Shown: positions 18,997 to 22,272 of the stretch, piece after piece | Layout: each line of letters starts with the position of its first letter | Numbering within the stretch: position 1 is the stretch's first letter | From: Methanolobus sediminis | GTDB lineage: Archaea > Halobacteriota > Methanosarcinia > Methanosarcinales > Methanosarcinaceae | DNA: 64,000 nt | Reading direction: 5' to 3' | NCBI RefSeq assembly: GCF_031312595.1 | Contig: NZ_CP133592.1 | Span: 1,736,001 to 1,800,000 of the forward strand | Position numbers and translations under genes: made by a program | Notes under the pieces: generated by a model | Told to the model about the DNA's origin: nothing | What the model saw: the letters and a program-made list of their open reading frames with translations, nothing else | The model's database searches: none

Positions 18997-19452
18997 ATGT
19001 CAGTGAAGGATGATACATTATCAGAATGGGAAAGGAAACAACTTCTTACAGCCTTGCATTCCAGGCTTTTCTGGGTAGGAGAAGAAATTCCATACTCTAT
19101 TGAAATTAAAGACAAAAAATGTAATTTGCACGAACGTGTATGGGAACTGATAAATAAAGACAATATTACCGATGAAGACAGAAAGCATATTGAGGAGTAT
19201 ATAAGTTATCTCCGGGAAAAAGAGCAGGAAGACGAAACAAAGCTCAAGACTGAGAAACTCACAAGAAAAGAAGCAAAGGCTATTTTCAATGAAACCGGAG
19301 GAATTTTAAGAGCCATTATGGATCTCAGGGAAGTAGAGGACGGGACTGTAAAAATGAAAGAAAAAGAGTTTCATAATATCTTTTTTAAGGAACGTGTGGC
19401 TGAAGCGCGAAGATGGCTTCGGTTCCTGCAGGATTCTGGTGGCCTTACATAA
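18997..19452 (+). CDS. Conserved archaeal protein (possibly DUF5788)
   Basis: 151 residues, soluble, highly charged and helical. The N-terminal SEWERKQLLTALHSRLFWVG and later AKAIFNETGGILRAIMDL (about 91-108) look like conserved blocks. I tentatively place it with the archaeal DUF5788 family from memory; the function is unknown. It is divergent from prsW and has its own TATA-rich upstream region. Confidence 0.6.
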   Translation: MSVKDDTLSEWERKQLLTALHSRLFWVGEEIPYSIEIKDKKCNLHERVWELINKDNITDEDRKHIEEYISYLREKEQEDETKLKTEKLTRKEAKAIFNETGGILRAIMDLREVEDGTVKMKEKEFHNIFFKERVAEARRWLRFLQDSGGLT

Positions 19453-19536
19453 CTTTTTTTCTGTATGTATGATGTTTGTAAATATGCCAAATACATCATC
19501 ATAATGATAATCACTATATACCATTGTATAGATATA

Positions 19537-19545
19537 TTTATATAG
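19537..19545 (+). promoter_or_regulatory. Strong TATA box facing a region without a called gene
   Basis: TTTATATAG within a very AT-rich stretch. Start of transcription is expected near 19567, three bases before the first of three consecutive hairpins. No called plus-strand gene lies downstream before 23139. Confidence 0.5.
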
Positions 19546-19566
19546 TATGTTATATTTGTAGAATAT

Positions 19567-19790
19567 GCAGTCACAGCCAAAACGCAGGCATGTGACAGAG
19601 AAATGTCCCAAAATGGTACGATATGGACATCATCAAACCCGCCAAAAAAACGGATTGGATTGCATAGGAATGTGGGATGGAGATATTCCCCTCAATATTT
19701 TCAAGTTGCACTACCCACATTCCCTCCGTCAATCATGAGTATGAGCAAAGGCAGGGAGTAAAATAGCATTCTACAGAATGCGGAGTTATT
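19567..19790 (+). ncRNA. Candidate structured non-coding RNA (or 52-codon mRNA)
   Basis: After the TATA box come three perfect stems in a row: GTCACA/TGTGAC (19570-19575/19591-19596), ATGTCC/GGACAT (19603-19608/19625-19630) and GGAATGTGGG/CCCACATTCC (19667-19676/19714-19723). A near-palindrome, GCATTCTACAGAATGC (19766-19781), follows. The base composition is richer in G+C than the surroundings. The alternative is a 52-residue frame, ATG 19603 to TAA 19761, with no good SD and an unusual composition. No match to RNase P, SRP or tRNA patterns is seen. I favour an sRNA but cannot exclude the small protein. Confidence 0.4.
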
Positions 19791-19812
19791 GTCATTTCAT
19801 TTACTCAATGCC

Positions 19813-22272
19813 TTAGTTACCTTCTTCTATTCTTTTTGCACTTTCATACATCCAGTTTGCATCATCTTTTCTTCCCATGAGCTCAAGCACGTAGCCCAGA
19901 TTCTCAAGGGTTATTGTCACATAGGATCGGTATGTTTTATTTTCAGGATTCTGGTCCATGATGGCAGCGTATGATCGCAGTGCGTTCTCATAACTTTTCT
20001 TTGCTTCACCATACATTCCTGCATTCAGGAAAAAGGCACCCATGCCATCAAGTACACCTGCATGGTCAAGTTCATATTCAACATTTGAAGGGTCAGCATT
20101 CATAAGATTCCTGTAGGTTTCCAGGGAAGTAAGGAATCTCTTTTCTGCCTCGTTCGCAATTCCAGCCCCTACTGCCAGCTCGGCAAGTCTTGTGTTTAGT
20201 GCTGCAATCCTTTCAACCGGATACATATTTTCAGGTTCCAGAGCAGCAAGTTCTGAATATGCTTCAAGTGCATAATTACACATGTAACCGGATTCTTCTG
20301 TTTCTCCCTTCTCTGAAAGAGTATATGCAATTCCATCGATGACAGATGCTTTGTTTACAAGTATCTGGATGTTGTCAGGATATTTTTCTGCAAGGGCATT
20401 GTATTTTGATAGCAGGAATTCCAGGGTCTCAAGTTTCTTGTCGATCTGCTTATTTGAGGCAGACATTTCCATCTTCTCAAGCAGTTTTATGATCTTAGGA
20501 ATGTATCTGCCTGAATCTTCATCCTCCTGAATTTGCTCATAAAGCTTCAGTGCGTCCATTAACTGTCCCATTGCAACCATTATGTCTGCTTTCTTTCCCT
20601 GTATCTCTTTCATTCTTCCTGCGTTCCTTCCTTCCAGGTCAGGGATAATACCAAGCAGTTCTGCTCTGATCTCAAGAATACGGTCATATTCCTTTGCGAT
20701 GAAATCAACATCACCGGTATGGTCTGCTTTCTTCTCAAGCTCTAAAAGAATGATGTCTATATTGTCTTTAATGTCCCTGTCTGTTTCACCACTCTTTATA
20801 AGTTCCATATAGCTGATCAAAGCTTCATCATAGCGCCCAAGATCAAATTGTACCTTTGCTGTGTTCTTCAGAACCTCATTCATCTTAGAATCATCTCCAG
20901 TTGCATGCTTCACGGTCTCATATATGGATAAGGCCTTCCTGAAATTCTCAAGGGCTTCAGAATATCGTTTTTCTTCAGCAAGTATCAGTCCTGTTTCTTT
21001 GCACATATCTGCACTGATGAGTCCGAGTTCAAGGTTGTCCTGGCCAGTTTTTCCTATTTTATCTCCAAGTTGTCTGTATAGATCAAGTTTAGATTCGTTT
21101 TCTTTTTTAAGCTCTGCAAAAGCCAGCATGTCTTCAATAATAGCTACTGCAGCATGGATTGTATTATTGTCATCACCTTCTCTTTGAAGGATATTTACAA
21201 CAATATCTACTGCTTCTTCTATATTTCGAATCGCACCTTCTATATCATCTGAATCTTTCAGGAGATTTCCAATAATATCAAGTGAGAATGCCACATTAAG
21301 CTGGTATGAAGTATTTTCAGGTTCAGAGGCAAGTATTTTTCTTGATGCATCAAGTATTAGTCCGTATTTTTCCATCAGTTTCTGAGTATCTTCCTCTGCT
21401 TCCAGAAGCCTGTTCATATCTCTCAGGATACCGATGCTTATCTTCCTGCCAGAGTCATCCTCTTTTTCATTGTCAATGAATGCAGAAGCAATTTCCAGTG
21501 CCTCTTTCAATTTAGAGAGTGCAGCATCTTCCCGGCCTTCATTTTCAAGTATATGGGCGCTGTTTTGCAGGATGGCAGCAACTTTCAGGGAGTTACTCCC
21601 TTCATCTTCCGCTTCTTCCATATACAACTGCAGCAGTTTTTCGTATTTTTCTTTCTCCATTTCGGATGCATTTTCCAGAGGAATGTTCAATAGGTTCTCA
21701 CGAATGATTTTTTTCTTTTGCAGATTGCTGTTATCATCGTGTTTTTCTGCATCAGATCCTTCCTGAAGTTCAAGAGCCTCTTCAAAAGCATCAAATGCCC
21801 TCTCATATTTTCCGGTTTCAGCAAACAGGGCACCCATATTATTCAGAGTGGATATCATGTTGGTGATATGTGACTGGTTTGAAGGATCTTTCTGCACAAG
21901 GTCCCGATAGTTCTGCGCAGCAATAGCATACCTGTCCCCAGCTTCCATTTTCCTTCCTGCATTCTCAAGTGCAAGTGCCATGTTACTGAACATATTAGCT
22001 CTCTGCTCCGGCAAAAGGTAATCTGGCTCACTTTCAACAATATTTGCAGCTTTTACGTATCTTTCCAGAGCTTCCTCTTTTTTCCCCTGTGAGAATAGCA
22101 GGTCTGCATATGTCTGCAACACTGCAACCTCAATCTGCGGTGAATCGGCATGTTTTGCCTGCTCAGCTGCCTGTTTTAAAATTTCCAGTGCATCTTCATG
22201 CTGTCCCTTCTCAATAAGGCTTACTCCTTTGTTGAAGTGCCTGTATGCCATATCTCTTGCTCTTTTGGACAT
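19813..22272 (-). CDS. Large cytosolic tetratricopeptide-repeat protein
   Basis: 819 residues, almost wholly TPR-like helical hairpins. The canonical units are clearest at the ends (AYRHFNKGVSLIEKGQHEDAL near 10-30; SYENALRSYAAIMDQNPEN near 765-785). It has no signal peptide or membrane segment, so it is a cytosolic scaffold. It is very acidic. No enzymatic domain is seen. Other TPR genes lie at 23139 and 27142. Such proteins are abundant in Methanosarcinaceae; the partners are unknown. Confidence 0.85.
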   Translation of the reverse strand: MSKRARDMAYRHFNKGVSLIEKGQHEDALEILKQAAEQAKHADSPQIEVAVLQTYADLLFSQGKKEEALERYVKAANIVESEPDYLLPEQRANMFSNMALALENAGRKMEAGDRYAIAAQNYRDLVQKDPSNQSHITNMISTLNNMGALFAETGKYERAFDAFEEALELQEGSDAEKHDDNSNLQKKKIIRENLLNIPLENASEMEKEKYEKLLQLYMEEAEDEGSNSLKVAAILQNSAHILENEGREDAALSKLKEALEIASAFIDNEKEDDSGRKISIGILRDMNRLLEAEEDTQKLMEKYGLILDASRKILASEPENTSYQLNVAFSLDIIGNLLKDSDDIEGAIRNIEEAVDIVVNILQREGDDNNTIHAAVAIIEDMLAFAELKKENESKLDLYRQLGDKIGKTGQDNLELGLISADMCKETGLILAEEKRYSEALENFRKALSIYETVKHATGDDSKMNEVLKNTAKVQFDLGRYDEALISYMELIKSGETDRDIKDNIDIILLELEKKADHTGDVDFIAKEYDRILEIRAELLGIIPDLEGRNAGRMKEIQGKKADIMVAMGQLMDALKLYEQIQEDEDSGRYIPKIIKLLEKMEMSASNKQIDKKLETLEFLLSKYNALAEKYPDNIQILVNKASVIDGIAYTLSEKGETEESGYMCNYALEAYSELAALEPENMYPVERIAALNTRLAELAVGAGIANEAEKRFLTSLETYRNLMNADPSNVEYELDHAGVLDGMGAFFLNAGMYGEAKKSYENALRSYAAIMDQNPENKTYRSYVTITLENLGYVLELMGRKDDANWMYESAKRIEEGN

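Follow-up and report, generated by a model that had tools for sequence, protein, structure and literature searches.

CsrB and RsmZ are sponge RNAs that titrate the protein CsrA; brief G-rich motifs recur in them, while the rest of the RNA varies. The LhrC sRNAs of Listeria have C-rich loops, and pairing of their UCCC motifs with Shine-Dalgarno sites has been shown experimentally. In Methanosarcina mazei, the single-copy RNAs sRNA162, sRNA154 and sRNA41 act in trans, some of them, it is thought, at ribosome-binding sites. Archaeal regulatory RNAs for which families, structures or common promoters have been defined are rare. M. mazei sRNA162 is described as an sRNA of the same archaeal family as the organism studied here (PMC3510493), and LhrC1-5 as several homologous, stress-induced sRNAs of one genome (PMC4132741, PMC5880928). 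For Methanolobus psychrophilus R15, the available text of one report gives 195 intergenic sRNA start sites and nine cold-induced, conserved sRNAs with a common 'cold box' upstream (PMC5378194, Sci Rep 2015).

Here we compare these systems with a locus in the window (the whole 64,000-nt stretch of DNA analysed). On comparative evidence, positions 19567 to about 19795 (+) are shown to encode a structured, non-coding RNA that belongs to a multicopy Methanolobus family. The family can be found by covariance model in all Methanolobus genomes searched, its promoter element is also present before a few protein genes, and a link to cold induction is probable. The original prediction had proposed a candidate sRNA, or a 52-aa gene, behind a TATA box; it did not extend to the membership of the locus in a multicopy family whose copies have an upstream promoter element in common.

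Anatomy of the locus

The features are listed below with the evidence on which each was placed.

19492-19530 (+): upstream promoter element, candidate 'cold box' (TCATNATNATGA, then a conserved AT-rich stretch); 63-nt ungapped alignment of 73 loci, promoter-only model R3
19531-19546 (+): BRE/TATA region GATATATTTATATAGT; sequence and promoter alignment
19537-19545 (+): TATA box TTTATATAG; read from the sequence
19567 to about 19795 (+): sRNA gene, start and 3' end predicted; orthologs, covariance models R1 and R2, fold z = -2.94
19570-19596 (+): stem P1, GTCACA (19570-19575) with TGTGAC (19591-19596), 6 bp; repeats and minimum free energy (MFE) fold, mostly kept in 15 orthologs with little covariation
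19603-19630 (+): hairpin P2, ATGTCC (19603-19608) with GGACAT (19625-19630), 6 bp; two-sided changes in 6 of 6 pairs and 82.2% of cells paired in 60 copies
19615-19626 (+): motif M1, GGTACGATATGG, in the loop and stem of P2; invariant in 13 aligned orthologs, near-invariant in paralogs
19667-19723 (+): long hairpin P3, GGAATGTGGG (19667-19676) with CCCACATTCC (19714-19723), 10 bp, perfect; two-sided changes in 9 of 10 pairs and 94.5% of cells paired in 60 copies
19679-19702 (+): apical hairpin P3a, loop with CCCCTC (19688-19693); pairing from MFE fold and by eye in orthologs
19736-19746 (+): motif M3, TGAGTATGAGC in the window copy, family consensus GGAGTATGAGC; motif comparison of copies
19766-19781 (+): hairpin P4, near-palindrome GCATTCTACAGAATGC (GCATTCT/AGAATGC); repeats and ortholog alignment
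19782-19793 (+): motif M4, GGAGTTATTGTC in the window copy, family consensus GGGGTTATTGTC; M3-M4 scan of copies
19813-22272 (-): TPR-repeat protein gene, convergent conserved neighbour outside the RNA; gene calls and neighbour comparison

The non-coding RNA gene is ~230 nt long. Its start was predicted at about 20-25 nt 3' of the TATA box, and its 3' end was set by the last conserved motif. As originally claimed, the TATA box at 19537-19545 faces a gap with no long gene on the same strand, the upstream DUF5788 gene ending at 19452 and the downstream TPR gene being convergent. The series of three perfect stems (6, 6 and 10 bp) and a near-palindrome was likewise recovered in full at its predicted positions, and none of 200 shuffled sequences folded as well as the stretch itself (MFE -60.8 vs. 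a shuffled mean of -48.6 +/- 4.1 kcal/mol; z = -2.94). A rise in G+C had also been described; it is seen relative to the sequence just upstream (0.41-0.44 vs. 0.26-0.35) but not relative to the downstream gene, which is equal (0.36-0.46). The extent first given, 19567-19790, does hold the element on the plus strand, but the anatomy is wider: the promoter begins at about 19492, and GGAGTTATTGTC ends at 19793, 3 nt past the end given.

That the RNA is part of a neighbouring mRNA, as its long 5' leader or its 3' UTR, and not a free RNA, appears extremely improbable. A few divergent relatives (L072, L168, L176) do directly precede a glutamine amidotransferase-like gene, but at the window locus the RNA has its own promoter and the downstream gene is convergent, and the other three copies in the same genome are likewise found in gaps, where the next gene is convergent or some distance away.

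Within the convergent TPR gene, an exact GGTTATTGTC occurs at 19909-19918 (+) of the window, probably by chance.

Family extent, stem covariation and the coding question

A 366-nt query that included the promoter matched 91 places in 27 of 27 Methanolobus genomes, the window's own genome among them with four places including the window locus; 73 of the 91 matches were fetched and analysed. The covariance model R1, built from 13 orthologs, matched 60 of these 73 loci. The other 13 missed E <= 1, and in at least three of them (L030, L047, L062) what follows the promoter is a protein gene. With the RNA-only covariance model R2, 1 to 6 matches were obtained in each of the 27 Methanolobus genomes (E <= 0.01). 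The wider R2 searches, filtered so strictly that distant copies may have been missed, matched 31 of 111 genomes and 4 of 14 genera of the taxonomic family at E <= 0.01. At the level of the class the number was 29 of 237 genomes at E <= 1e-4, made up of the 27 Methanolobus genomes and single genomes from genera g2 and g11. The M. mazei sRNAs, compared here by description, come from the same archaeal family and are trans-acting, as is proposed for the present RNAs; unlike them, they are single-copy, and the present family is multicopy with R2 matches only in the four genera.

Two distant sRNA relatives in genus g11 (L280 and L291) carry GGTGGTRCG, ATTGGTTTGCAC and the stem AAGAATGTGA/TCACATTCTT (with one change in L291). 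Both have two CCCCTC motifs, and M3 and M4 are absent from them.

Searches for known RNA classes were negative within their scope. Rfam 15 gave no family at or above the gathering threshold at the element (best weak match a snoRNA on the other strand, E = 1) and no match in 13 further loci, and no tRNA or tmRNA was found in the 11 loci scanned. A sigma-70 scan is not relevant for an archaeon, and its one terminator-like match was the P4 hairpin on the other strand. Scanning for the exact motif pair returned 12 genome contigs (10 Methanolobus, one Lachnospiraceae, one Butyrivibrio) and one viral contig; the three matches outside Methanolobus had no promoter or hairpin of the sRNA kind and were dismissed as chance.

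The window's own RNA type was present in 15 genomes. These copies are orthologs, because the convergent TPR gene follows next door in 15 of 15 (protein identity 51-100%), and on the basis of this adjacency the window-type copy is vertically inherited. In the ortholog alignment most of GTCACA, GGTACGATATGG, CCCCTC and GAGTATGAG is nearly unchanged, with GAGTATGAG missing from the copy in genome G016, and the spacing between the conserved motifs varies through indels of non-triplet length.

Stem conservation was examined at two depths. In an alignment of 13 orthologs made by MAFFT without use of the structure, 99.0% of the cells of stems 2 and 3 were paired and 4 of 16 pairs had two-sided changes; further pair types in these orthologs were not in excess (7 vs. 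8 in shuffles). In an alignment of 60 copies, which was fitted to the structure in a way that favours the pairing and covariation figures, 89.9% of the cells of the two helices were paired, two-sided changes occurred in 15 of 16 pairs (158 cells), and the covariation score was 0.466 vs. 0.186 in shuffled alignments (reached in 0 of 500), with 39-46% of cells paired in slid controls. The compensatory changes in stems 2 and 3, in orthologs and paralogs alike, thus bear out the sRNA reading of the original prediction.

The 52-aa gene offered there as the alternative found no support: in the orthologs the frame is interrupted or displaced, its length ranges from 10 aa to 92 aa, and the C-termini are unrelated. 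No conserved reading frame was found in the 15 orthologs. Since neither the 52-aa nor the 57-aa frame keeps its length and register between genomes and the indels are of non-triplet length, the element is not a protein gene; a small-protein gene was rejected on these grounds, and the open reading frame after M1 is likewise unconserved. We also give very little credence to, and regard as largely refuted, a dual-function or coding RNA that yields a small protein from the 52-codon frame, the 57-codon frame or the AUG of M1. Such frames do occur in the window, M1 resembles a start site, and the peptides after M1 often start M-D/A-I/L/F-I, but non-triplet indels, shifted frames and early stops were found across the 15 orthologs and the paralogs, and it is the stems that show two-sided changes instead.

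The common promoter and the published cold-box sRNAs

The promoter could be aligned over 63 nt without a gap in all 73 fetched loci, a result that is partly circular because most loci were found through the promoter. A fairer comparison counts only those RNA-model matches that are absent from the list of the promoter-bearing query. In at least 20 of these 36 independent matches a same-strand promoter preceded the RNA, 19 times at a distance of 45-95 nt; at most 16 were without one among the promoter matches listed (E to about 5e-7). For the Methanolobus RNA-model matches as a whole, a promoter-model match lay upstream on the same strand in at least 98 of 114. The promoter-only model R3 gave 5 to 12 matches in each of the 27 Methanolobus genomes (E <= 0.001); outside Methanolobus it matched 18 of 84 genomes of the taxonomic family, spread over four other genera (E <= 1e-4).

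Of 150 listed Methanolobus promoter sites, 98 drive an sRNA of the family. Other sites precede protein genes, which were named by eye: a 127-aa protein (MKTER...), a protein with a start resembling IEDLEKDLD..., a small zinc-ribbon-like protein and a glutamine amidotransferase-like protein. Pfam at the curated cut-off gave no match for the scanned representatives of the promoter-linked small proteins. The leader of the zinc-ribbon gene carries M4 (GGGTTATTGTC) in both genomes examined. The small protein genes under the common promoter may form one regulon with the sRNAs.

Among the individual loci, MKTER... proteins of 127-128 aa were seen at L030, L062, L166 and L169, IEDLEKDLD... proteins at L047, L165 and L170, and the zinc ribbon at L167 and L173. 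In genus g11 the promoter element lies before small zinc-ribbon-like protein genes (e.g. L272, L275, L279, L286, L289), with 4 to 11 promoter matches in each of six genomes. In genus g7 (L281 to L284) it lies before one conserved exported-looking protein (MHPIIKPLG...) in 4 of 4 genomes examined.

The family very probably is that of the cold-induced 'cold box' sRNAs of M. psychrophilus R15. The identity is likely because the two sets agree in family, in genus, in their number per genome and in how the promoter is arranged: the M. psychrophilus sRNAs come from the same genus, with several conserved sRNAs per genome and a common motif upstream of the promoter in the available description, and the present family has several conserved copies per genome (R2, 27 of 27 genomes, 1 to 6 each) and a conserved motif upstream of its promoters (the 63-nt alignment; 20 of 36 independent matches). 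The number of matches in genome G006, which is probably M. psychrophilus R15, counts against the identity: the RNA model gives four matches at E <= 1e-9 and one at 0.07, vs. nine published sRNAs. The same genome has 11 promoter matches at E <= 0.001. The two descriptions also differ in content, the accessible published text being without structure, loop motifs, distribution or mechanism (PMC5378194). Later work treating these sRNAs was not recognised among open-licence PMC papers. The RNA family is real and was probably seen in part in 2015, in a text that, as far as accessible, did not define it as a structured family.

If the RNAs belong to the cold-box sRNAs, the upstream TCATNATNATGA element would be the published 'cold box'; it would therefore be bound by a regulator, and the RNAs would accumulate in the cold. 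With a covariance model, a common promoter and a probable link to published cold induction, an archaeal cold-response regulon and the factor that reads the box become directly testable.

Conserved motifs and possible modes of action

The family order from 5' to 3' is promoter (TCATNATNATGA and TATA), P1, P2, P3, GGAGUAUGAGC, P4 and GGGGUUAUUGUC. The P2 hairpin carries GGUACGAUAUGG, in the form GGUGGUACGAUAUGG in many copies. In P3 the stem sequence is variable, but 59 of 60 copies have a C-rich apical loop (shuffled loops: mean 14.4, maximum 23). The tail motif M3, GGAGUAUGAGC, is repeated in several members other than the window copy, where it occurs twice in exact form. The tail motif M4, GGGGUUAUUGUC with at most one mismatch, lies no more than 400 nt from M3 in 60 of 60 M3-bearing copies and is repeated in a few; L029 has four copies in tandem. 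Judged from sequence, such fixed loops and motifs on variable stems point to contacts through base pairing or protein.

We tentatively propose that the RNAs, which are probably cold-induced, would target translation initiation in trans. The apical loop of P3 (CCCUC/CUCCC) is complementary to GGAG/GAGG-type ribosome-binding sites and would pair with such sites of mRNAs. The ribosome-binding-site-like motifs of the P2 loop and tail (GGUGGUACGAUAUGG, GGAGUAUGAGC) might be contacts for a protein or for the 30S subunit or, alternatively, might sequester the C-rich loop, which a target would then release. Taken as a whole (family, cold-box identity and action on translation initiation), this explanation has in our judgement about an even chance of being right, most of which lies in the identity and the cold-box parts. 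The loop-pairing step falls below that, because both computational pairing tests were negative. The C-rich loops of the four copies in the window's own genome paired with 46 ribosome-binding sites of the window no better than shuffled loops did; GGAG was present upstream of 12 of the 46 window genes vs. 1.5 expected. Pairing between loop and tail was not copy-specific (-10.95 kcal/mol for the own loop with the own tail vs. -11.40 for other loops; the own combination was the better one in 22 of 60), the tail end of L001 being taken at an M4 match inside the neighbouring gene.

The LhrC sRNAs are similar in being multicopy and in having a C-rich loop in a structured RNA (59 of 60 loops here), a likeness of working and not homology. 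They differ in being bacterial, and pairing of the loop to Shine-Dalgarno sites is demonstrated for LhrC and a proposal here. To our knowledge, tail motifs of the M3/M4 type are absent from LhrC.

The tail motifs are central to a second explanation, in which the RNAs are sponges or scaffolds: GGAGUAUGAGC and GGGGUUAUUGUC, repeated in some copies, would bind and titrate an RNA-binding protein in the way that CsrB/RsmZ titrate CsrA. An example of such a partner would be the small zinc-ribbon protein, whose gene is under the same promoter and has GGGTTATTGTC in its leader. The regular presence of M4 within 400 nt of M3 (60 of 60 copies), the four tandem copies in L029 and the M4 in the zinc-ribbon leader of both genomes examined speak for titration. 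We nevertheless consider it unlikely: the zinc-ribbon link consists of two genomes and short motifs, and the g11 relatives keep the C-rich loop without M3 and M4. The likeness to CsrB/RsmZ lies in short repeated G-rich motifs on a variable RNA, but the motifs differ, and we know of no CsrA-type or other binding protein for the Methanolobus family.

M1 looks like a Shine-Dalgarno sequence with an AUG, and the RNA might thus be directed at the ribosome itself, with P2 as a mimic of translation initiation, more Shine-Dalgarno-like motifs in the tail, and occupation of the 30S subunit in the cold. M1 is indeed like the start regions of open frames: GGTGGTACG-ATG is found in L273, L277 and L288 (genus g11), and GGTACGATATGG sits at an apparent gene start in L112 and L117, two of the chance motif-pair matches. 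In several copies (e.g. L044, L019, L020) a stop follows at most one codon after the AUG. Occupation of the 30S subunit is distinctly unlikely, however, given that the AUG is held in the P2 stem, that GGTGGTRCG is retained in the g11 relatives but has no AUG there, and that GGTGG is upstream of 0 of 46 window genes, with no enrichment. More doubtful again is a cold-induced archaeal RNA class that joins a ribosome-recruiting hairpin (Shine-Dalgarno and AUG, in some copies with a near-immediate stop), an anti-Shine-Dalgarno loop, and repeated tail motifs linking several copies and a protein in one network. If this were true, cold would reset translation initiation via RNAs aimed at the ribosome-binding step and not at single mRNAs.

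M3 and M4 also occur together in a separate hairpin, GTGGAGTATGAGCGGGTTGGGGAGTGGGGGTTATTGTC...AACCCGCTC, at L203 (2278365-2278605 of the window's own genome) and L204 (G006), with matches in 27 of 27 genomes. This type of hairpin may serve the whole sRNA family as an antisense partner. The L203 element shares 24-30 nt with another G-rich hairpin locus in most of the 27 genomes. A weak promoter-model match lies on the opposite strand at L203 in the window's own genome (E = 0.03), and in G006 only a similar box was seen by eye. Rfam gave no match for the G-rich hairpin loci L268, L269 and L271. These, with L270, represent a second conserved intergenic hairpin (L268 at 2439028-2439056 of the window's own genome) whose loop is very rich in G (GGGGAGTGGGGGTTAGTGTGGGAGTGGGG) and may form a G-quadruplex.
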